A stretch of DNA of 64,000 nt from Tubulanus polymorphus. Taxonomy: Eukaryota; Nemertea; Palaeonemertea; Tubulaniformes; Tubulanidae. The translations under genes were made by a program, and so were the position numbers. The notes under the pieces were generated by a model. The model was not told the DNA's origin. It did no database searches and saw only the letters and a list, made by a program, of their open reading frames with translations. Positions 7,112 through 53,800 of this stretch are shown piece by piece. Every line of letters begins with the position of its first letter. Position 1 is the stretch's first letter. The stretch spans positions 2,790,001 to 2,854,000 of the forward strand of contig NC_134026.1 of NCBI RefSeq assembly GCF_964204645.1, given 5' to 3'.

Positions 7112-10100
7112 ATGTCTACCTCCTCTGAGCCGACTGCTAAAACTGCCATGATTAACGGCAATGGTAAATCACATACATCGAGTCCCGATGATTCTAGTTC
7201 ACTGACCGACAACGTCCAACTAAAACGGACTTTAGGATTACGAAATGGGATTTCAATAATCGTCGGAATCATTATCGGAAGCGGAATATTCATCAGTCCT
7301 AAAGGCGTATTTCACGAAGCTGGATCTGTCGGCATGGCTTTACTCGTCTGGGCTATCTGTGGATTAATGGCATTATTGGGTGCTTTATGTTACGCCGAAC
7401 TAGGTGTCTCGATACCCGTATCTGGTGGACCGTACTCTTACATAAAACGTGCATTCGGAGATCTTCCGGCTTTCTTGGTGTTATGGATTAACGTTATAAT
7501 TCGTGTGCCTGCTGGTAATGCGGTTATTGCGCTAGGATTCGCGTATTATATCGTGGAGCCATTCTTCCCGACCTGTGAACAGCCAGCCGTATCAGTTCGT
7601 CTGCTGGCAGCGATTGCTATTTGTAAGAATTTCATTAATCTTCAGGGTTCAATTTGTAAATACCGTAAACCAGGCCTTACTCAGACACTGTCAACTTGGA
7701 TTCTTTAACTCTAGACAAAACAAAATAATTTTTCGACTCTTGCCGCGAAATTTGCTGACGGCAGACTGGTTTTTCCGGCCCCAGTTCGTCTCGAGTGAGG
7801 GGAGGTTTACTGATGTTCCTAACAGTTGATTTGGATTCAGAAAGAAATTCTTAAAATAAATTGGGTCCAAGCAAGACAAAAACCTAGTGACAGTGAAGTG
7901 TGTACAATGTCTTGTATCGCAAGGTTGTCTTCCCCATTTATCGTAACATCATGAAAGAATTGTGAAGTTGTTCGGCCTATATCAACCGTAATATTATAAA
8001 AGTAGCTTAAAGGTTTGATGAAATATGAAATCCTATTGATTTCAGGTACTTTGAGTTTCTTGAATTGTTTGAGTGTGAAATGGTCGTCACGAGTTTGTGA
8101 CTGCCTGATGTTTATGAAGATATTTGCCCTGGCTATTATCATTATAGCTGGAATTGTACAGCTCTGTCGAGGCGAGTATCTCAATTGTCATCCCATTTGT
8201 CCATTTTTAGATTTGAATCAATTTTAATGAAACAATTCAATTCTTACGCAGGTTATACACGCAATTATGAAAACATGTTTGAAGGCACATCACCGGATGT
8301 TGGAAAGATAGCTTTAGCTTTCTATGCGGGATTGTTCTCCTTTTCGGGATGGTTCGTGGTGATATTTTTCTCGATTTCGTTCGATGAATTCAATTTTGTG
8401 CCGTTTTGATAATACAGAGTTTGTATCTCATTCTTTCACGTAGGGATAGTTTCAATTTCGTGACGGAAGAAATTAAGAACCCAAAACGGTGAGGAAACTT
8501 CTCGATTACGTCCATATTATCTTCTGTATATATGTCGTAACGTTCTATTTCACGGGCTCATAAAATATAATTCCAGAAATTTACCGTTGGCTATTTGGAT
8601 CTCGGTACCATCAGTGACAGCTATCTATGTGTTGGCGAATGTGGCATATTTTGCGGTATTAACTCCGCACGAGATAATGCAGTCTGATGCTGTAGCCGTG
8701 GTAAGTCCCTATGCTCATTAAAAAAAATCTTTATATCGTGTATTTTAGTTTAGTGAGACGTATAGTGTTGAGACTAGAAATTTCACTGGGTTTTTATTCT
8801 GAGTAAATTTGCACTGTATATAACATGAGATGTGTAGAAAAATTCTGTGAAAAATAATTTCCATTCAAATCAAGATATGAGTGAAATAATTGATAAAATT
8901 TATCGGGTTAATGAATGAAATTCTGCATTGCTCATAATCCATTTTAATTCGGATCACATTTGTCGCGTCAATTCGAATTTATTTCAGATTTAAACAGTCT
9001 CAAACTACGTTTCATCCTGACAATTGTAGTCATAATACAATCATAAAAGTATCAATATAGACTTGTACCCCAGCAGTAGTGATTTTGTTCTTGTGTAGAA
9101 GTGTACTATGACAAAAGTAACAATATTTGTGGCATCAATCAAGATTGAAGGTTGAATTAAAACTCGTTCTTTCTATTCATTTATTTCAGACGTTTGGTGA
9201 TAAATTACTCGGTGTTATGACTTGGATAATTCCGCTGTTTGTAGCGTGTTCTTGTTTTGGTAGTTTGAATGGTTGTATTCTCACTAGTTCCAGGTAAACA
9301 TTAGACATCCAGTTCTTATACTCATTTGAACTGTGTTACATTCTATAACACTCAACAACACGCCTCTATAGGTTCAAATATTAGTTGTTGTCATGAAAGT
9401 TCAAACACAGGTCACTTAATGCTTTTCACATTAAATAGTACCATCAAAAATGCATGGTGATTTTTTTGAACTTTAGGAAACCTTAATGAGAACCTTGGGC
9501 TGCGCTTTCAATCTAATGAATTTACCATTTTCATTCAGTTCATATGAGTAAATCTATATAATATTGCGGTAGTAGCTGGCCCATTTAATCATCGCTGTAT
9601 GTAATCAAAAGTATAAAATGTTGACCAGTAAGAAAAGTAAAGGCTTAATTGAATCTATGCTGAAAATATTTTTTGTTGTCCCAGATAAGCCATTCAGTGA
9701 CTTGAATCGAGTAATGAAGAATCACGAATCAATATTTTAACATGTAATTGATTGATTTCTTTCAGGTTGTTTTTCGTTGGTGCTCGTGAAGGACATTTAC
9801 CCGACTGTGTGGCTCTCGTCAATCTGAAGTACTTCACACCTGTGACCAGTGTTATGTTTTCCGTGAGTAGTTTTTCATGTTACATGTACTGCAACTCGTA
9901 TACTCACTCACATACTCACTCACGGGGAAGTTGGTTTTTTTTAACATCCTGATTGTATAAAGAGCAGTTGAAAATGAAATTCATGTATTGAAGCATGTGG
10001 TTTGTTCAACCCACATAAGTCGCGTGTACATTGTTTACAGGATTCAATTGATTTAGTTGCGATTACTTACGAGTGATCATTGCATGAATGATGTATGTTA

Positions 10101-13903: not shown

Positions 13904-16900
13904 ATGGGAAAGATGGACTTGCTGAAGATTGCTAGCTTTTTACTTACAACTGTGATAGTACAACACGCTGTGGACACTAAAACTGGTGAGTCAAATAATT
14001 ATAAACTCAAGTAAAATCTTGTTAAAATTCACTTGCTGCTCAAAACAAGAAAAAAGAATTGAAAAAGGAAGCCATGCAAATGTGCTTCTTATCGTATGCT
14101 ATTGTTGGATCAAAAATACGGTACATTTAAGTTTTTGGTTGTTGAATGTAATCTAATTTTCTGAAGAATCGATTATAGAAATGATGTTCTAAAAGCAAAA
14201 TTGAATTTCGAAAGGCGTAAATCGTCACTGGATCTTTTTGAAATCCTCAGAACAGTTGAGGGTCAGAACTAAGGCACTTAAACGAACAGAAATTATGTCT
14301 ATTCTTGTAATATATACGGTAAAAACTGAATCTTTCAATTCATTTGATTCACCTCAGTTCAGATGGAATTCTCGACTGCCTCGGTAAATTGAAGCCAGTG
14401 GAAATTGTGTTTAACAAGAAAATCAAAAGTCATACTCATAATTCAAGATATTAAGGATATGATTCTGAGGAATATTATGTCATTCATTTATTCATCTATC
14501 TAATACTCCGGATTCAGGTCCACATCGTTGCGAGTAGAGTTAATTCTGCGAGTAGAGTTAATTCACTTCAATATTGGATCTTGGGGTAGACATTGAATTC
14601 AATGATTACTCCAAGGTTGGATCAGAACTGTGAAACTGGGACCAAATGTTAATGTAAAAGCTAATAACCTACCAACTGAATTACAGCTCACATTTCCATG
14701 AAATAACACTGCAAATTCAAATTGATGATTGTATGTTTTAGATTGGCATAGACCTATTTTATTTTACTCTTTTGTCTAAATCTTGTTAAAGCAGCTGACA
14801 AAGCAGCTGTTTTTTTATCTGAATTTTCTAGTTTGAAGTAACTGAATACGTCTCCAACTGAGATTAAGAGAAGGAGAGGCTTTTGTAGATTTTGATTTTG
14901 ATTCAGATATGTACGACACAGCTGACTTTCCAAACACACGTACCCCAGCTAGTTACACAAGAAACACTGGTGTATTGACAGACCCTTTTGTCAAATCCTA
15001 AAACGTTCTTATCCGCTTGTCAACTGTAGTTGAACGAAAAAGTCCTACAATAGAAATTAATCAAATCAAAATGAAATCGCAACCTTTCAGCTGTTGACTA
15101 AAACAGCCATCATCATTCCTGATGGCAGTCAACAGCTGAAACAATTGCATTCTATTGTAGGACTTTCATTTAGACCCATATATGTATGTTTGATCATATA
15201 CCCATTGAGATCTATATCTAAAGAGATTCGAACATTTCGTACATAATGAGAATCCCACACTAACGAAAGATGAAGTCCGAAAAGTTTCCTTTAAGCTAGT
15301 AATTTTTTTGATTTAGATTTTATTGATTTGTTGATCTAACTCAGAATTCTTGAAGTTGACTAAGGTTATCAGTCGAAACGTCGAAACAGTAAATCATCAG
15401 CTTAAAGGGAACTTTCCGGATTTCATCTTTCGTTATAAAAGTCTGGGATTCTCTATATATCGTCACAATACGGACGTAGTATCATTTCGTATTTCGTAGT
15501 GGATATTTCGTAATTAAGCAAAGTCTTCTATGTACACGATTAATTGAAAAGTTATTAAGTACAAATCTTTAAAAGCTGCGAAGAATGAATGGAGATTGAT
15601 CATGATGAATTAATAATTGATGATGAAGAACTTTCATAAATGAGAGGACAGTTTTATGGATTTCCTGAGCGGTTTCACAAAATTAATAAAATAGTTATGT
15701 TACCGACAAACACAATGCACAATGGATATAGGATTTTTCACGCAAAAGACAGGATGACATAATAGTCCTTGTTAGTTTAGTATTTTAATTTCGATTCTCT
15801 CAAATAATGGCGACAATCAATATAAAGATTTCAAAAAAAAACTAAGGGATGCCATATAAATGTTTGTAAAGCCCAGCCCAGCGCATAAGAAAAACTGAGT
15901 TTATATGATCAAATAACCACAGGCCCAGAGATTGTACATCACTGTGCAGGCTTAAGCTGGCAGTAAAAGAGCATAATCTAAATATTCTGTTTTAACACTA
16001 ACCCATCAGGGCAGAATATCGGAAGAGTGGTAGATGTTAGAATTTTATTTTTCCTCATGATTGTGGATGTTTGCTTCCAATTCGATATTTTAACTGAAAT
16101 CAGGTTATAGGATTTATATAGAAAACGATCATGTTTGGCTTAAGCTTCCGGTTCCAAAATAGGGTTAATAACGTGTCATAATACCACCGGAATTATCTTC
16201 TAGAGTTTTCATACGTCATCCTCGACTGCGGTATCTAAAAAGAGTCGAATGTAGATTTTGTTTTAGAAAATAAAGTCAACAGTTAAAAATGAAATATATA
16301 AATCAGTGACCTGATTACCTATTGAAACAGCTGATTGTTGTATCATTATTTGAATAGCTTATTGAAAAACGACGCTGGATTCTAGTTATTGATCGCTGTA
16401 TATGTTCGAATGCTTATCAATACGTGTTTATGATTCAACTTTTAGACACCAGTAACACCGATCTGCGCTTACCACGTGATCTAGAACCGGTTCACTACGT
16501 CATCGAACTTCGTCCAGATATATACAGTAACGATGCGACTTCTTTCCGTTTCCACGGTTTCACTCGTATTTACTTCAAGTGTCTGAAACCAACCGATCTC
16601 ATCACATTTCACATATTGAATTTGGAAATCGACAATTCTACGATAAAATTCGGAGCAAATAATACCAAACGAACGGCACCGAGTTTCAAGCAATGGAGAC
16701 AGGACTCGACGCGACAGTTTTTCATCGGGGAATTGGACAAGAAGATGAAAGTTGGACGGGTCTATTTTATCGAAATGAAATACTCAGCACCGTTGATTAC
16801 TGATTATAACGGGTTGTACTTAAGCCCCTACACAGAAAACGCAGTGACCAAGTAAAAAGTTTATCAGTTCTTTTATTTCATCTCTGTTGGCATATACGAT

Positions 16901-19900
16901 TTTCGAATATACGTATCACACTTCACTGATTCTAGTAATTATGTATTACAATGAATATTTTTGATCGGAAATAGGTATATGGCAACTTCAAAACTGTCAC
17001 CGACATATGCGCGGAAGGCATTTCCGTGTTTCGACGAACCACAATTCAAAGCAACTTTCGACGTAACCCTTAGAAGAAAGAATCCAATGAATTCGTTAAG
17101 TAACTCACACAAGTTGTCATCATCGAAACCGGAGTAAGTTCAATGTCTAAATACTGTGTAAAAAAATACCGAGAAAAAGGAAATCTAGATGAACCGTTTA
17201 TTTATCATGTTCATATATTTCCCTTCATCGATACAGCGCTGATGGATGGATCGACGATGTTTTTGCCACGACGCCCGTTATGTCGACGTATCTCTTGGCA
17301 TTTGTCGTCAGCGAATTCAAGTCAATAGAAAGAAAGTCTAAAAGTGGAACCACGGTGAGAAAGTCAATGTAAATCTTTGTATATACCGGTACAATGTTTT
17401 TTTACGACGATAAAGAGTTGTAACCTGCTCATCGAAATCGTATTGACTGATGTGATAATTCTGTTATTCAACAGGTCCGGATATGGACAAGACCGCAGTA
17501 TATTACCTACGCAAAATATGCCGACTCAATTGCAGCAGATATCCTCGAATACCACGTGGATTATTTCAAAGTAGATTTCCCATTGCAGAAAATGGGTAAT
17601 TACAATAAATCACATATAAAGAATGATAGAAATAGACGAAACTATAATATAGGTTCCATCATCAATTTCAGATTTGATAGCAATACCACAAATCCAAACA
17701 AACGCTATGGAAAACTGGGGCTTAATCACGTTTCGCGAATCGACGCTGCTTTGTGACGTTGACTATGCCTCCCAAGATTACAAGATATTCATTGCTCTCG
17801 TAATATCTCATGAATTGTCTCATCAGGTATAAGAATGAATACGAGTTAAGGTAATATGAAACTTTAATGAGATACACAGTTTATACGTATTGTGATATGA
17901 TGTATTTTCAGTGGTTCGGGAATTTAGTTACAGCGAGTTGGTGGGATGATTTATGGCTGACCGAAGGTTTTGCTACCTACGTTTCATATGCCGGCGTGCA
18001 TCACGTGGAACCCAGGGTCAATGTATGGTCAAGTATTCTAATAGCTTCATCAACAATAAATCCAACAGAACAACACATTGTAACTGAAAAGCCATCTGAA
18101 TTAACTAATTAAAGAATACTAACAGTAATATATACATTTTAAGAGTAACATCAACATCAAATCTGGCATTATAAATTTCGGAATTCTTTATTTACTTGAT
18201 TTCATTTTAAATGAACGAAGATTGATTAAAAATATGTATATCACCAAAAATACATTAAGAGTTATGTATTTTTGATATCGCGAACAGGATGATGAGAAAC
18301 TATTGATCGATACGATAAATGTACTTCGGGATGATAGTTTGAGTGGGACACGTCCAATCTACGCGCAAGTCAATAACCCATCAGAAATATCCAGTATATT
18401 TGACTCAATATCGTATGGCAAGGTTAGTTATCCGACCCGACCCGACCCGACCCGACCCGACCCGACCCGACCCGACCCGACCCGACCCGACCCGACCCGA
18501 CCCGACCCGACCCGACCCGACCCGACCCGACCCGACCCGACCCGACCCGACCCGACCCGACCCGACCCGACCCGACCCGACCCGACCCGACCCGACCCGA
18601 CCCGACCCGACCCGACCCGACCCGATTTCGTATTTAACACACAGTAACTGAATCCCGATATAGAGTTGATATACGTTCGGTATTATTCAGGCTTCACGTG
18701 TGATTCGTATGATGAATATGTTCCTCGGACCAAAGAAATTCAAGAAGGGAATCACTGTGAGTATTGGTTCGGTCGCAAGGTAATATTTGACAAATGCTAT
18801 AACGGAATAGGAGATACGAATAGAAAGAGGAGGCAGCGACTGAGCATTCGCGTAAACATCATTCATAATATCCTCCAAAATGTTGTCTTTTTTACTCAAA
18901 CATGTAACTAGCAAATTATGCGTATATGTTTTATGGCAAGAAATTAATGATTTCTTGAATACTTTCAGAAATACATCAAGGACCATAAGTATTCTGCTGC
19001 TACTCACGATGATCTGTTGAATGCTCTAACTGAGGTACGTCATTTCACCATTCTCCGACGGAAGCTCTTTAGGGGAATAAAAGAAGTGTATATATTCAAA
19101 ACCTGACTGCGACGAGCGATATATCACAGAGGAATAAAAATGAAAAAAAATAGTGGACAACTTTGAACGAATCAAAGCCGTAAGAGATTCGGCGATATGT
19201 TCACTTTCATTTATGCCCGTGAGACGCTTCCGTGGATCTACCAGTAATTGTCATTATATTTTTGGAAGGCTTCTCGGTCGCTGAAAGTCTACACTACCGA
19301 TGACCTACTCAACTTCTTCAACGAGGTACGCCAATAGAAAAACATCGATTCATCGATATTCCCACCGGAACCGTCATATTTTTTTTACATAATATTTTTC
19401 CAGACATTCAGGACACAAAAAACATTCACTTCGGATGAGTTGATACGCGCTATTACAACGACCCGAGATATAGTGGTAAAATGAAACTGTAGTTCTAGTT
19501 TCAGTTCTCAACTCATTTATAATTCCACGCATATCAAACCCAGGGGTAGATCTGTAAGGCCTTTTTTCAGAGTTTTTCTTTCTGAAATTTCTAACCTATC
19601 TAAGAGCTCCATTTGGGGTTCCAGATGCTATCGGGTTTCAATCTCCGCCATCGCCTCTAGTTTGGTAGTTTATTAGCCTCCTCAGGCGGTAACGGTCCAT
19701 TTTTTAGTAGTGAATACCTTCACGGGAGATGTTTTCGTGGCGTTAGAGCCGTAGTATTTAAGAAATGCTTTAATCGTGAATTTCTAACTTTTTACACATA
19801 ATCAATCAAATAGACTTTATAACAGGATTTAAAGTGATCGTTTTTTTTCGTAGTTGAGTCAGGTAGAGCCAGTCGGTTCTATTATGGACTACGGAAGATC

Positions 19901-22900
19901 AACAGCTCAAACTCGTTTAATATAGTCTATGGTTTTATAGACCAGGAGTCCGTTTTTCATTATTCATAATATGTTAAGTCGTTTTACGGTTTGAACGGGT
20001 CCTAAAGATGCAGTCTCACAGAGGTTCGCGGTTGTTATGTTAGGCTTTAGATAATTGAAATTTGAAATAAGTTCATTTTCAACCTTATTTCACATAAGTT
20101 CACATTTAATCTTAATTCTAAACCTTACCGAGCCTGTCTTTAGTACCGGTAATAATAATAATAATTATAATTTTATTTCCATAATAAATTACAACATACC
20201 ATAAGGATTCCTCTATGATTTGCTGGTGATGTCACGTTACCTATTATTTCGGGAAGATTAACGCTACAAGCTTTTTTCTGTTTTCACTAGGCCAGTAGAG
20301 AAAAGACTTCTATAAATGTGTCAGAAATAATGTTGCCATGGATTAAGCAAAAGGGATATCCGGTAGTGACAATAGAACGCGACCAGAATGCCCCTGATAC
20401 AGCAAACGTCAGACAGGAACGCTTCCTCCTGTACGCTGATAACGCTACGACAGACAGGTACGACTTATTTTTCATAAAGCGTTTTTTATTCGACTAACAA
20501 ATACGTGATAAATACAATAATAAATCATAAGTGTAAAAAAGCATGTGTTGCATATTGGATTAGTCTGAAGTGGCACGTACCCCTTACTTTCACAACAAAC
20601 GAGTCGACTCCTAACTGGTCAATGGACAAAGCGAATATAATTTGGATGAATCAAGATAACAGTAAGTCATTTTAGCTCCAGCATCGGAAGACATAAAGTA
20701 TAAGTTAGTTCTTTCTTTCTGTTTTTAAAAACGTTGATCGTATGAATATTACTTCATCAATTGCCGTTTAAACTCGTAATAGATTTTCTTCCCCAAAAAA
20801 GTAAATGGTATTCACGTATCGGTACATATTCAAGTATTTACTTTAAGTTATGGTACTTTGAATATTTCAGCTCGCATTGGAAAAAGCGACGGGTACCCCT
20901 CAGACCCGAGCACATGGATTATCGCCAACATCGCACAGTGCGGTTACTATCGAGTCAATTACGATCAGAAAAACTGGAAGGCGATCATTCAACAACTTAA
21001 AAATAACCACAAGGTACCTTAGTCGATTTATGGAAAGATGGCCCTTAATGATTTCTTTTGATATTTCCACTGGGATCTTTGCATCGACGTGTCAAAAATT
21101 TCAGAAGGGATATTATATAAGATATTTTGTTGCAGGTGATAGATTCGAGGAATCGGGTTCAACTGATCGATGACGCGTTCTATTTCGTTCGGGCAGAAAT
21201 ACTCGATATGACGACTGCGCTGGAGCTGTCCGAATATATGAAAGACGAATCCGAATACTTTCCGTGGAAAACTTACATTGATCACTTAATCTACATAGAC
21301 CCGCTGATTGGAGCAACGGACCTTTTCTGGGAATATTCGGTAATATGATCTCATGATATGTATGTTGATTTAACATTGGTTACGTCTCAATAAGTACATC
21401 AAATTCATGATAGAAACAACAATTCCTGCGTTCCAGTTATGTATTCTGGCGTTCAGTTTTGATCAGTCGAAGTCTCAATATATAACCAAATAAATGTATA
21501 TTCGCATCAATTGAAAGAACCTTTTCGCGAAATCAATTTATTCAGGGGTAGATCTAGGGGTCGACTTCGACAGGAGCCCCAAGAAGTGAAAAGGGCATAT
21601 GCTGAAAAGTTATCCACATAGAACCAAAGTATGCAGGGGTCTGGACAAATTGGAATTTCGGTACATTTAATGTAATTTCCAGACACTTGAGAGTCATTAA
21701 AAATCTGAAAGAAATAGAAGACATTGGCCCAAAAATTGCAAAAAGTTGCTCTCCTCTGGATTTGCCTCAGTTGTTTCAAAAATAGAAATAAATTTCATCC
21801 GAAAAATACCGAATTATTCAACGTAATTCTTCTTTTTCCCAGCGATTCATGGCACAGCAGCTTTCTGTAATGTACGATAAACTCGGTTGGCTCGCTAAGG
21901 AAACGGATTCTTTTACAGATACGTACGTAAATTAAACAATGAAAAAGTGTATATTTCTGTCTTTGATGTACATGTACATTAGTAGATGTACAAAGCAACA
22001 GATTTAATCGATACATTTATAGGGCGTAACTCCAGGTTCGCTTCTGAACCTCAAGCAAAGCGTGGACTTTTAAACAATGAGTAAATCTTAACACTCGCTT
22101 TTTTCGCTGTGGTTTCTGGAACCGGGTACACACCTCATTACGACAAATACTTGATATACATGATAATAATAATCATCATCATTATCATTATTTTTAGATA
22201 CTTAAGGACTTCGATGTTGGATAATTCATGTTATTATGGACTCGAGGATTGTATAGCGAAGGTCTCTAGTATTTATGCGAATTGGATGGCCGATCCAGAA
22301 AATAACCCGTAAGTAATGACGTATAGTGTACGTAACTGTATTTCTATCAAATGATATGATAATAGATTCCGACGACGATTTTGTTGTTCCGATTTTATTC
22401 TAGGATTGATCCAAATTCGAAATTTATGGTAATCTCCAATGCCATTCGAAATGGTGGTCAGAAAGAGTGGGATTTTTTGTTTGATTGGTATCGAAAATCT
22501 ACAAATCAAGAAGAGAATAAACTATTTGTGGCTTCATTGGGATATTCCAATGACACATCCATACTTAACAGGTGAGTAAAAGCCGTACAATCGTCTTACA
22601 CTTCATGATGCCTCGTGCCCATGGGCAATAAAATGGATAAGAGTGCCTACTTTGCATCGCGTAGAACCCTTACAGAATATTACATGTAGTTATAATGATG
22701 AGGGTTAGTTCTGCATGGATAGATACGTGTATTGAGGTAGGGCCAACAATGTCATTGTTTAAGTGAAGTCTTCTTTGGTGCAGTTAAATGCTTGATAATT
22801 TCCAAGATTTGAAATTGCTTCTAATATTCGCGATTTGATTCTGTGACTGTGGCACAAAAGCATGCAATATTTTTATACAAAATATTCTTGCTTTTATTGT

Positions 22901-36474: not shown

Positions 36475-39400
36475 ATGTCGGCAGCGATGTTGAATGGTAC
36501 CGTAAAAAACGGTACATTGACTTCGGTTCAACCGACTAATAGTGACTATTTATCGATAGATATTCCACCAGCGCTGACCATATCCGTCACGTTCATGTTT
36601 GTGTTCGTTTTAGTTTTCGGGATAATCGGGAATATTTTGGTGATATTCGTCGTCATGTTGAACAAGGACATGAGAAACTCGACGAATCTTTTTCTCGTTA
36701 ATCTGACAGTGGCTGATTTACTGGTCCTGTTGGTGTGTACCCCGATAGCTCTTCAAGAGTTCTACAACAAAGACGTCTGGAATCTCGGAGAAGGAATGTG
36801 TAAGTATTGACCGAAGATACCATCGCGCTAACGTCACATTTCCAAAGAATTACTAATCGATGATTTCGAAGATTCTTGATGATGTTATCGATTTCAAAGT
36901 GTCACTGCAAACTAATATATTTCAATATATCCAATGGGTTTAAGTTAAAATACTTAAATGAAGAAAGAAACTACAAAGTATCATCTCAGCATTGCACTCA
37001 TCTCAGCTTTTCAATATTTTATTTTTGCATGATTTGTTCAATTGATATAATTGGCTGCTTGTTGGTTTGTTGTTGTCATTGTATTTACCAGTTTGTTTCC
37101 TAATAACACACCACTTCAACGCCGCAGGAAGTGCTACGAATTATGACCTTCCGTTCGTTCTCAGCAAATCACCCAGTACAGTCATAACCGCGCTCATTAA
37201 TCGGATACATGAGATACCGTACTCGTAATTTCATCCCATTGTTAGAGTGAAACTATCTGGATATTTACTTGGAATCTCAATCTGAGCCGAGGGTTTACAT
37301 ACTTCAAGGTTGCATTTGAGACTATACTACCCCCTTATCAAATATTCAATTTATCAACCAGCTGGTACACCACAACCGCGGGCCCTGATTGATGATCAGA
37401 ATCGATATTAAGGTATACTTCAGACGATTTTTTTAACCGTCGAAATTCCACATGCCATCCCACAATTTTTCATTTATCTAATTTCAAATTCCTGAGATGA
37501 AATGCTAAATTCTATTACCATAAACTCAGTAAACAAAATATTGAATGGCCTCCGTGTTATCGACGTAAGGAATAGACTAAAAGTCTCATCACGAATCAGG
37601 TAATTGTCAATTTGAAAATCTACCAGAAATCTGCACATTCGTTTTTGTATGACTTCACAAACGAGTCAACGCAATGTCAAAATCTTACCATGTGTTGTAT
37701 GTTTAGAGCTTTTATACGTCTTCATAGAAAAATATCATCTTTCCATTTATTATCAAATTGGTGCGGCAGGAATAGTGGCGGGTCTTTTCACGAGTCGTGA
37801 CGTCAGACGACGATGGAAGCTTCTCAACGGACTTGAAGCGATACCGCTGTTCTCCCATTAGCTTTATTATAACAAACGATTTTGTTATGTGCGTTGATGG
37901 GAATTGTTTCCACATGAAACTTGAAACTTGAAAAGTCATGCATCCTCTGGCATGGCGGATCCGTCGTTAGTCGCTCCTTAACGATTTGGTTGTGATTCCA
38001 CATGTAAAAACTTCTTAACTTATCAATTTTCAACTCACATTTTTGTTAACGAAAAACGAAATCTTCGAATGCCACATACTTAAGTATGCCACAATCATGG
38101 CTACGATTTAAGACAAGTCTTAGACCATCTTAGTTCTATAGCCACCCAACAAGTTAAGACCACAGTCTTTAAATTTATGACCACTTTTACGACCGGAAGT
38201 CGCGACTGCGCAACTGAACCCATGTCCTTACAATAACAGAGTTGATCTAGTCGATCATGTTATAAGCATAACCTTTTTAGGACTTTTACTTTGGTATCTT
38301 TATAACTAGTAACAAGAGGAATTAAAATGTGAATCGATTCTACAAACTTTTGTGCGTGCGAATTTATCAGTAGAATCTACGGAAATCGTCCCCGGAACAA
38401 AAGGATACTTAGAAGGATAAATTTTCGGAGATGCTTCTTAAGGTAATTGCCAGGAGAGTGATTCTTTCTTTGATAGCATTTCTCTCGCAGTTACCTTAGT
38501 TAGCATGGCGATCCATGAATCGACGATAACTGACGAAGAACAACGAACGACAAAGAAAGGATGGTTTATGGAACATTCCGAAAAGATGCCATATTCATTA
38601 ACGAACCAGACTGACCCTTAATTGCAAACCTTTCTTATATATTCTACTGAGTTGGGAGACAAAAGAGTACTTGATATATTTTCGTTATGTAATATAATGA
38701 AGCTTCCGTCCATTAGCGAAATATCTTCGTTGACATCAAAACCTCAAGCTCTTAACAATATCAACAAAGATATTATGTTGCTAATGGATGCGTTTGCGGG
38801 ACTAATTATATCTTAGATTTAAGTTGCCCCTTTTTACAAAAATGATTACCTTTTCAATTCCTCGTTATCTGACAAATTTAGTTTGTGGCACGAAGTCTGT
38901 TTGATTCCCAACTAAAACTGACTTGCATAAAATGAATATTACTGGGTCCATTTATTCCTCTCGTCTTGATATCTCAGCTTGAGAGCATATTTCGATAAAG
39001 GGCTGATTTCAATATAGTTTTAAAACATCATTAATTTTTTTTGGATGTAAACGGTAGTAGTTTTCAGTATTCCAATAAAAAGATGTTTGGATGATTTTGT
39101 CCTCGTCCTCCTACAGCGTACTTGCAAGTTTTTTCTCCACATACAATCTACATGTTATTTGCAGAAATCTGAAGAGCGATAAAAGATTTATTTGCCGCGG
39201 TACAGTAATGACTCAAGACTCATGACATTTTGCGGTTGCGAATTAGCGCTTACAACATCGATAATGCTTTCCAAATAACTCTCATTTTAAGATAGTTACG
39301 GGTAATACTCAGATGTGATACATCAATTTCAAATGCATTTAGGTTCGAGAGGTGTCCATCGATTTGCATACCACTACTATTCTAAATAGCATTTCATAGG

Positions 39401-40418
39401 CGTCCAAAAATGGTCTCTCGATGTTCGGAAGCTTACATCGTGAACTCTTTTGGTGAATCAGAAAAAGTCTAAAAAATCTACATGTTTCAAAATTCAACGT
39501 CGTACATTCAATACCAATCCAATAGATGGTAATTATCTATTCTGTTTTTCAGGTAAATTGCTACCTTTCCTTGAGAATGCCGTTACACATGCATCAGTGT
39601 TGACGATTCTAGCCATTAGTATGGAACGCTACTACGCTATTTGTCACCCACTACGGGCGCCCGCCCTTTGGACCAACCGCTGTTTGTCAAAGCTTCTCAC
39701 AGTCGTCTGGTCAGTTGCCGTAATAAGCACGTTACCGTTTTTCTTCATGGCAGAACTAATGCATAAACGAGCCCTGGACGGAACGCCGATCCTAGTTTGT
39801 CAAACTCTGATCACCAAGCCGTGGCAACAGGTGTACATCACAGCCATTGCGGTTTGCTTCCTTTTAGTGCCGTTCGTCATAATGATTATTTTATACGGAA
39901 TCGTTGGAAAAAAGTTACTCTATGACAAATGCGCTCTTGGTAATCAAACCGACGACAAAGCCGTCTCAGCTCTACACAGCAGGCGGCAAATAGTTATCAT
40001 GTTGATTTCGATTACTGTCATATTTTTCGTTTGTCTGTTGCCATTCCGCGTACTGTCATTGTATCTCATATACAATTCGATGGAGGCTTTTAAAAAGCTG
40101 GGCATTCCTACCGTAATCGCCATAGTTTATTTCTGTCGTCTGATGATCTACATTAACAGCGCCATAAATCCGATCGTCTACAACGTCATATCGACGAAGT
40201 TCCGCAAAGCTTTCAAACAGATACTCACGCGTTATGTATGTTGCGAGTCGTGCACGTGGACCGAAATGGAAGAAACTCCCAGTCCGTTCGTGCGCGTCAA
40301 CCCTGCATACCGCAGGTCAGTATCGCAAGCTATCGACGAGGATGCCGGAGAGGATGGGATCGAACCTGTAGCTTCGGATCGAGTCAGAATGATGGAAGAG
40401 CAGGGCGAAACACCTTAA
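36475..40418 (+). CDS. Class A GPCR resembling ecdysis-triggering-hormone receptor (ETHR-like), paralogue 1
   Basis: Two exons, 36475-36799 and 39553-40418, encode 396 aa. The intron splits the TM3-entry Cys codon (MC|K). The extracellular N-terminus has glycosylation sites at Asn7 and Asn12. TM1 is at about 34-58, and TM2 holds Asp81 (LTVADLLVLLVCTP). The G-protein motif ERY is at 133-135, ECL2 has its Cys in ILVCQT, TM6 contains CLLPFRVLSLYLIY, and TM7 ends NSAINPIVY. Three Cys after TM7 (YVCCESC) are possible palmitoylation sites. The blocks MRNSTNLFLVNLTVADLL and THASVLTILAISMERYYAIC, together with CLLPFRVL, are what I recall of arthropod ETH receptors and fit that group better than TRH or ghrelin receptors. 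The ligand in this animal is unknown. Confidence 0.85.
36800..39552 (+). other. Intron of GPCR 1 (2.75 kb)
   Basis: Donor ATGT|GTAAGT and acceptor TTTTTCAG complete the Cys codon in frame. No other gene or clear repeat is seen inside. Confidence 0.7.
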
Positions 40419-49351: not shown

Positions 49352-49699
49352 TGACCCACCTGTGACAATACATGAAAGTGACCGCATGAGGGTTCGATCG
49401 CACTCTTTAAGCATCTCGCATTCCAAGTTCCAAATACATGTATTACCACAGTATTAACATATTGACATACAGCCAAATTTCGAAACGACCAGCTGCTCAG
49501 ATGAAAGTAAGTGGAATATGACCCACCTGTGACAATATATATATATATATACATGAAAGTGACCGCATGAGGGTTCGATCGCGCTCTTTAAGCATCTCGC
49601 ATTAAGTTCCAAATACATATATTACCACAGTATTAACATATTGACATACAGCCAAATTTCGAAACGACCAGCTGCTCAGATGAAAGTAAGTGGAATATG
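49352..49699. repeat. Tandem duplication of a 167-bp unit
   Basis: Copy 1 is 49352-49518 and copy 2 is 49519-49699. Both run from TGACCCACCTGTGACAATA to AAGTAAGTGGAATATG and are nearly identical. Copy 2 gains an AT dinucleotide expansion after GACAAT and loses three bases (CATTCCAAG versus CATTAAG). Confidence 0.92.
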
Positions 49700-50496: not shown

Positions 50497-50860
50497 ATGG
50501 GAGAAGTAAAAGGCTATTCAAATGTCATCAATATGAGCGATGCTTTTGTCAATATTTCCACGGGCGGAGTTTACGTAAATCGGAATTCTTCAGGTATCGG
50601 AGGAGGCGGTGAGGTGTTTTACGTACCCCTCAGTACGAATATCATTGTTACATTGGCTTACGCCATCATATTTTTATTCGGATTGGTCGGAAACATTCTC
50701 GTGATACTGGTCATTATTCGTAATAAAGAGATGAGAAATTCGACGAATTTTTTTCTTCTAAACCTGAGCGTCGCCGATCTGTTCGTACTAACCATTTGTA
50801 TGCCTTCCGCTCTGTTGGAGTTCCATTCCAAGGATATATGGTATCTCGGTGAAGCAATGT
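50497..50860 (+). CDS. Class A GPCR resembling ETHR, paralogue 2, first coding exon only
   Basis: One exon of 364 bases encodes residues 1-121 and one base of the next codon. It shares with GPCR 1 the block MRNST-N-FL-NL-VADL, then EFH-KDIWYLGEAMC against EFYNKDVWNLGEGMC, and the intron at exactly the same split Cys codon (ATG T|GTAAGT). The N-terminus is longer, glycine-rich (GIGGGGEV) and has three glycosylation sites (Asn12, Asn19, Asn30). TM1 covers about 48-73, and TM2 holds Asp94 (SVADLFVLTICMP). No second exon is found up to 64000, so the intron exceeds 13.1 kb or the gene is incomplete. The intact frame and consensus donor argue for a living gene. Confidence 0.8.
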
Positions 50861-53800
50861 GTAAGTAATTTACTGTTAATCTATTAGTTAATTTGCCATC
50901 TGAAAATTACGGCTCGTCGCCGGCCACTTATATGCGGTCATATTCAACATACAGACACATACAAACGAAGCGTTTTTCACCGGTAGATTCGGTTTCAATT
51001 TGCTTATGGAAAACAATTCAGTATTAGGCAAATTAGTTGTTCTAAGTGTCTTCCGATGCAAATGAAGCAGAAAGGAAAAAGTTGAGTTTTTCTCGTTAAT
51101 GCTCTACAGAAATTCTATTCTGCTTCCATAGGCTTAACCTGCTTAACTAAAAGCTTAACCAGCGATCAATCTCAAAGTGCTTTTTATTTATATAAATTCT
51201 ATGAAAACTCTTTGTATCTCAAAGAACGTACGAAGATCAGCAGTCATGCGAAACACTATTATAACGAGAATCCCACAATGATGACGAAAAAATAAAGACT
51301 GGAACACTGATGTTTTGTCAATCGCGGCTACAAACGCGTTCAGTTATAATGACGCCAATTTAGTAATCGGGTGGAATTAAAATCATTTTCGTTGCAATCG
51401 CAGAAAAACGTCGTAGACTTTGAAACAATAAAATGCCCACTATATAATCCGAATGTGCTAATTTCATTATAGATTCAAATAGAAAAATATAAAATGCCAG
51501 TCAGATATTTTTGACTCTCGCTAGAGACTATCATTAGGCTTGATAAGATAGAACAACGGTCACGTATACATTCTGGGGACAGCAAATTAATTGGGAAAAT
51601 TGGCAAGTGACTTCTTAGTTAATTAATAGCGACGTATAAAGTGTATGAAAAAAAATGCATCTTTCGAAAATGGACGATATTCATATTCGTTGCAATGCAA
51701 TATCCTGTTCCAATACGTATCTCTGTGATTCAACAATCATCGGGCAGAAAATGAACGGAAATCATTATCTATATGCACGTGTTATCGAAATAACTGACTG
51801 ATATCTCAATCAATTTAAGTCAAAACCAAAAGTTCAATATCTCCGACACGAGCAATCATGATATATAGTAGATTTTTCAATGAATGCGCCAGCATAATTC
51901 ACGGAACTACACCGCGATTATTAGATTTAGTCGTTTTCCACTTGGATCGAATAATACGATATGAAATCGTTATTTGATTAAAAATATAATACTCCATCCT
52001 TTGAATAAAAAGCATCGAATCTAGATTTATCAGTCTTATATGAGATGAAATTATAGTTTATTGAATAGCGAGAGGATCTTCGTCAGAGGCAGACTATTCA
52101 CTGATGACGAACTTATAGATAACAGCATTTTAAAGAATGAATATATTGATAGTTTTGCAGAGTTTATTATTCACTAGTTCATCGCACGCACTCTTGTCCC
52201 ACAATATCTAATCTTTTCTCAACATGAAAAACGTGTTCAAAGTTCAAAATTTACTCTCAATTACATGAACTCGATCAAGATGGAAGATACCGCGTGTTTA
52301 TAGTAGTCTAATTCTATTGATCTAACTGATAGAACGACAACAATCTAGTTATTCGAATAATTGCACGTGTGTCACACCTCATTTTATTCTTCGTTGAAGG
52401 TCATATCTTTTTGGAAAAATATGAATGACTCGCGTTATTTGTCGATTGGAAATAGTCGATTTTCGGTTGGCAGGAATCGGGGATCACGGAAGCAATCATT
52501 CCGCGAGATTCGTCACCTGAGTAATTAAACTGGACCTGTTCTTCTGTTAGATTAATGGCAAAAGTGCGTGCAGGTAATGGCAAGCTTTCTAGCACTTTTT
52601 CAACCTCGGCTCCCCAAAGCGATGTAAATCTTATCTCGAATCGATGGACGGACGTAACCACAAATCGTATTACGCATGCTATTCGGGTGAATTTGATGGA
52701 AACGTCACATGCTCACGACGGCAAATATTTTGGCATTTTTCATACGCATAAGAAGGATATTCACATGCGTCATTTTGCACTTGGCAAATAATTTGACAAG
52801 CAAACCTTATTTTAAGAGAACTGAAATCAACTCTGCCTCATTAACTTTATCTTCCATTAAGTCCATCGATATCTATCACTGCGAAGAAAATTGGAGTCGC
52901 TTTCGATGACGTCAAGTCTAAGAGAGCTTCGTCGCATTTATGTCAAGATTTCCGCGGCAAAATCTAACTTCATTATCTCGGGTTGAGGGAGTTACTATTT
53001 TTAAACGCAGGTTACATTGAAAAGAATAAGAAAAATAACATGTATGTATGCAAATTGTGGAAAATCGAAAATGTAGGAAAAGGCGTCCATTCTGAGTAAG
53101 AGTTAACTCCGAATTGAAATTAGTTAATTTTCAATGGGTAAACTGTGAGTTAAATCTTAACTCACAACTGTGGAACTGGGTCCAGGTTATCATTGTTATT
53201 TGAGTCGATCGATGGGTAGATTCGATTTAGATTTTCTGTCGATGTCATGATATACATCTTCATTTTGCTGGTAAAACAAATAACTGTCTCGAAAAACTGT
53301 TCATATGTTCTCATGCCAGATCATAAGAACTTACACAGACAGATCAATAGCAATAAGAGAGGGACACTATCCTCTGATGAAAAATATCGTCTGGTATTCA
53401 AGCAATGAAGCAGTTTATCTTCAAGCGATCGCGTTATGGGAATAATTCATACCATTTTATACCGGGCTGGCAAAGCGTACACGATGATGTATGCATCTGT
53501 CGTAAAGGGAAAACTACAAATTGCACTAATTATTGTTACTAAACCAGCGGACATGTTCATCTATATATATACCGCAAAACCATAAGCGGATTTAAATTGT
53601 TACAGAAGTGCGGCAGTACCATAAGGATTAGGCCAGTAACGGTTTCATTGGAAGCATTAGGGATCTCTTAAATTCTCAGTGAGATTTCCACCGCCGGTTT
53701 GTTCAATCATATATAAAAACATAGAACACGTTCGTGATAGGTGTTATTCCAGATGGGACTCTTTCAGCGCGAGCATCAGTCTGTGCGGTCCATCTCACAT

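Follow-up and report, generated by a model that had tools for sequence, protein, structure and literature searches.

Candidate tandem duplicates of a small exon at a variable-loop position in an invertebrate-like M1 aminopeptidase gene

In an M1 aminopeptidase gene, the intron that follows a small canonical exon (e9) holds two short, splice-compatible blocks, c1 and c2, whose peptides resemble that of e9. Our preferred explanation, to which we give an even chance, is that tandem duplication of e9 has extended a variable surface loop of the enzyme. According to this explanation, c1 and c2 would be coding mini-exons derived from an old duplication of e9 (the second helix together with the linker before it), spliced in-line after e9 either constitutively or as optional cassettes. 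They would add up to 43 residues between the helices DDLLNALTE and VSEIMLPW—an insert predicted to form two more short helices, with starts of the form T-x-D-[DE]-L-[LI]. We infer from the DNA that c1 and c2 are transcribed and joined, as we do any function that the insert may have.

The aminopeptidase gene and its small exons

The window, i.e., the whole 64,000-nucleotide stretch analysed, corresponds to C2:2790001-2854000 in a 267.8-Mb assembly of 77 contigs. The features discussed below are as follows:

16451..22571, + strand: M1 aminopeptidase gene, frame-consistent part (chain of GT/AG exons with an open frame; Pfam hits)
18691..18756, + strand: e8, the exon preceding the cluster (phase 0/0)
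18969..19034, + strand: e9, canonical exon of 66 nt (phase 0/0; counterparts in paralogues; aligned to solved M1 structures)
19269..19325, + strand: c1, extra mini-exon candidate of 57 nt (phase 0/0; likeness to e9, codon usage, splice scores)
19404..19475, + strand: c2, extra mini-exon candidate of 72 nt (phase 0/0; likeness to e9 and c1, splice scores)
20291..20457, + strand: e12, the next canonical exon (exon chain, paralogues, solved structures)

Leaving out c1 and c2, sixteen GT/AG-spliced exons between 16451 and 22571 encode a 765-residue protein, which represents the core of the gene, exclusive of its far 5' and 3' ends. Pfam detects Peptidase_M1 (5.4e-69) and Peptidase_M1_N (4e-38) in the spliced product, and exons further downstream match ERAP1_C—so that both the N-terminal beta domain (Peptidase_M1_N) and the C-terminal helical domain (ERAP1_C exons) of M1 enzymes are represented. 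The zinc motif HELSHQ...E (HEXXH...E) and the exopeptidase motif NAMEN (GxMEN-type) are intact in the open frame, as expected for a member of the M1 aminopeptidases (PF01433). With these domains and catalytic motifs, the earlier note's identification of the gene as an M1 aminopeptidase is upheld; the gene is an invertebrate-like member of the family. The nearest solved structure is that of glutamyl aminopeptidase (4kx7, 4.9e-55). Alignment to glutamyl aminopeptidase and aminopeptidase N, with 4kx7 as the best PDB match, extends over the whole M1 domain; at the position considered here, these enzymes carry a single helix with a short loop and no extra repeats.

Each of e9, c1 and c2 is an open frame flanked by AG and GT, with phase 0 at both ends. 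The coordinates, lengths (66, 57 and 72 nt), phases, flanks and peptides given in the earlier note all stood on re-checking, as did its statements that joining the three blocks adds 43 residues and that any combination of them preserves the frame, each being phase 0/0. The donor GAG|GTACG is indeed common to e9 and c1, as had been pointed out; sharing GTACG is weak evidence of kinship, because the same string recurs at 20458 and 21923. If all blocks were joined, the introns would measure 234, 78 and 815 nt, against 76-503 nt for the other introns of the gene; these sizes would be ordinary, with no evident obstacle to joining.

A perfect 39-copy array of the pentanucleotide CCGAC (18432-18625) occupies most of the intron immediately upstream of e8, starting about 10 nt past the donor at 18422. 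The tract is likely polymorphic and could influence splicing of the small exons after it.

The same genome contains further M1 loci with which this arrangement can be compared. Four paralogous loci have a single 66-nt, phase 0/0 counterpart of e9 each, two more have e9 fused to e8, and in all six the e9 counterpart is followed directly by that of e12. Together with the solved structures, these loci bear out the earlier claim that M1 enzymes normally have just a single counterpart of the three blocks, and by this comparison e9 is the sole canonical M1 exon at this place. A scan of the e9-e12 introns at the six loci yielded no extra-exon candidate scoring above 24 (as against 32 and 29 here), and cassettes common to the paralogues were rejected on this basis. 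A divergent M1 paralogue (L015, on C1 at about 2.485 Mb), in which the e9 counterpart reads DIAETFKFQTITDDDFINTFEK, scores 29 against c1, 27 against c2 and 31 against e9—a similar likeness to all three.

Likeness of c1 and c2 to e9

An ungapped scan along the whole 765-residue protein placed the best match for both blocks at e9, with scores of 32 for c1 and 29 for c2; the runner-up places scored 22 and 23, respectively. Both blocks align to e9 at the identical offset, from its fourth residue onwards, and the end of c1 coincides exactly with the end of e9. Residue shuffling gave p values of 0.0007 for c1 and e9, 0.0005 for c2 and e9, and 0.0008 for c1 and c2. The same test against the next exon, e12, found no match for either block (p 0.45 for c1 and 0.86 for c2); the idea that c1 was copied from the beginning of e12, which likewise opens with ASR, is thereby rejected.

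Of the 17 candidates of 45-90 nt in the 1,256-nt intron that are open, in phase 0 and bounded by AG..GT, c1 is the most similar to the e9 family and c2 comes next. When the intron was dinucleotide-shuffled 5,000 times, the best candidate reached at least 32 in 12 cases, and a second, non-overlapping candidate reached at least 29 in none. Among 614 overlapping control windows, the best-score level was attained in 6 and the second-candidate level in 0. The homology between adjacent blocks that a tandem exon duplication entails is therefore found here (pairwise p 0.0005-0.0008 in one register, and 0/5,000 jointly), in agreement with the earlier description of three homologous, in-frame, exon-like blocks. 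These significance tests apply to an observation on c1 and c2 that had been chosen post hoc.

A competing explanation, which we consider somewhat unlikely, is that c1 and c2 are no exons at all but chance e9-like intron sequence or dead relics of a duplication, always skipped, so that the gene makes an ordinary M1 enzyme. The joint likeness, absent from every shuffle and control window, and the pairwise values in a single register speak against it. The post hoc selection speaks for it, as does the frequency of helix-cap motifs: the T-x-x-[DE] cap is a common pattern in proteins, and its commonness could inflate the likeness among e9, c1 and c2. At the DNA level, e9 and c1 share 24/39 positions over the core and donor; the likeness is therefore one of protein sequence, and the duplication would be old. 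That both blocks are still open and flanked by splice dinucleotides, despite this low identity, also weighs against relics or chance.

No splice-compatible candidate scoring above 15 was found for further cassettes in the flanking introns. A transposon origin was rejected: searching the genome with the DNA of 18900-19500 returned the self-match only, in a search that skips common words and so falls short of proof.

Coding and splicing signals of the two blocks

Codon usage separates the two blocks. With a training set that included e9 and excluded c1 and c2, c1 reached a log-likelihood ratio of 0.40 bit per codon, close to the 0.43 of e9, and none of 54 intronic null candidates matched it. The value for c2 was 0.04 bit per codon, which 26% of the intronic null equalled or exceeded, and is thus not distinct from intron; some true exons of the M1 gene score equally low.

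The splice sites of both blocks score no differently from what other introns of this gene span. The c1 donor (GAG|GTACGC) is strong, tied for the top among the 71 in the intron. The c1 acceptor (GGAAG) is weak: its score of -3.7 is among the lowest for this gene, comparable to three true acceptors; an alternative acceptor at 19245 was rejected, since it would place an in-frame TAA first. For c2, the acceptor is normal and the donor (GTG|GTAAAA) mediocre.

These signals bear on whether the blocks are exons in both directions. The exon-like codons of c1 and its top-ranking donor argue against permanent skipping; the intron-like codon usage of c2, the weak acceptor of c1, the mediocre donor of c2 and the lack of extra exons at the six paralogous loci argue for it—foremost in the case of c2. 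We likewise count the weak c1 acceptor, the near-zero coding signal of c2 and the absence of such exons from the paralogues against our preferred explanation of in-line splicing.

Insertion or exchange of e9, and the ERAP1/ERAP2 loop

The Pfam M1 profile gives 211.3 bits with e9 alone, 177.0 with neither block and 207 with e9, c1 and c2 joined. The M1 match thus survives in-line joining, which favours the preferred explanation. That e9 joined straight to e12 scores highest is a further point in favour of c1 and c2 being skipped. Replacing e9 by c1 yields 184.0 bits, as against 180.1-187.6 for four shuffled versions of c1, and replacing it by c2 yields 182.8 bits, as against 177.1-180.7 for four shuffled versions of c2. 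Because of how these substituted scores compare with the shuffles, c1 is taken to carry no M1 family signature and c2 a faint one at most. Both blocks lack the first three residues of e9, KYI, a position occupied by Y-L or similar in most of the M1 relatives compared (paralogues and solved structures).

These results bear directly on another alternative, namely that e9, c1 and c2 are mutually exclusive, with one included per transcript and the helix exchanged, which we judge unlikely. Published prediction criteria for mutually exclusive exons require that they be adjacent, homologous, in the same phase and of similar length (PMC5740500), and blocks of 66, 57 and 72 nt with phase 0/0 and GT-AG sites fit this description. 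As same-phase, similar-length homologous neighbours, they also resemble the exclusive exons of Dscam, SNAP25 and myosin heavy chain; unlike in those systems, joint inclusion here preserves the frame, and c1 seems to be without the M1 family signature. The c2-substituted domain, which exceeds all four shuffles, favours exchange, whereas the c1-substituted domain falls within the shuffle range. Substitutions by duplicated exons mostly retain key residues (PMC9741552), and the loss of KYI from both c1 and c2 runs counter to that pattern. Joint inclusion, being in frame, would not be eliminated by NMD, and introns of 234 and 78 nt impose no clear steric block: neither frame nor intron length compels exclusivity. 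The evidence leans away from an exchange of e9 and towards in-line insertion behind it.

For the preferred in-line insertion, the structural position of the junction is informative. The end of e9 aligns to residue ~484 of ERAP1 and ~501 of ERAP2. Chain numbers were read as residue numbers here, since this places the zinc motif at 353 (ERAP1) and 370 (ERAP2), its known positions. The junction thus adjoins the exon 10 loop, which spans residues 486-513 in ERAP1 and Cys503-Cys514 in ERAP2 and forms a non-conserved appendix off helix 8, suggested to be involved in heterodimer contact and in the binding of ERp44 (PMC9065437). In ERAP1 and ERAP2 this loop is mostly encoded by one small exon (23 residues in ERAP2), and the extra segment would likewise be encoded by small exons here. 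Alignments of the joined sequence to the ERAPs end at the junction, however, c1 and c2 being unlike the loop; the ERAP loop has a disulphide, whereas c1 and c2 contain no cysteine, and the two e9-like repeats are a feature of this gene, unlike the ERAP1/ERAP2 loop. Given the absence of both loop likeness and cysteines, we regard the arrangement as a parallel to the ERAP loop and not as an instance of it.

Because the junction corresponds to the variable-loop position of the ERAPs, the fold plausibly tolerates a 43-residue insertion there. Placed at this surface site, the insert would spare the catalytic core and change a surface appendage, which could serve in dimerisation, partner binding or trafficking. 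Duplication of an in-frame exon is a common event in animals, and we found no case of tandem exon duplication in M1 enzymes in the open-access literature searched. If real, the present one would place such a duplication in an M1 aminopeptidase at the site of the ERAP1/ERAP2 loop, for which a link to partner binding has been described. It would then suggest the loop as a general site for exon-encoded appendages in M1 enzymes. Quite improbable, in our estimate, is the more elaborate version in which duplicates of e9, spliced in different combinations, make up the exon-10-loop position, so that an appendage for dimerisation or partner binding would exist in several in-frame variants; if true, this would parallel the ERAP1/ERAP2 loop in an invertebrate.

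Elsewhere in the window, an exon at 7112-7708 encodes the N-terminal part of an amino acid permease, probably SLC7-like (AA_permease_2, 2.3e-19), and a 179-bp unit is tandemly duplicated almost perfectly at 49368-49699 (1.8 copies, 97%). Exons of rhodopsin-like GPCRs (Pfam 7tm_1) were located at 36475-36810, 39450-40418 and 50497-50868; they appear to belong to two adjacent, closely similar neuropeptide-type receptor genes, both with the motif MRNSTN[LF]FL.
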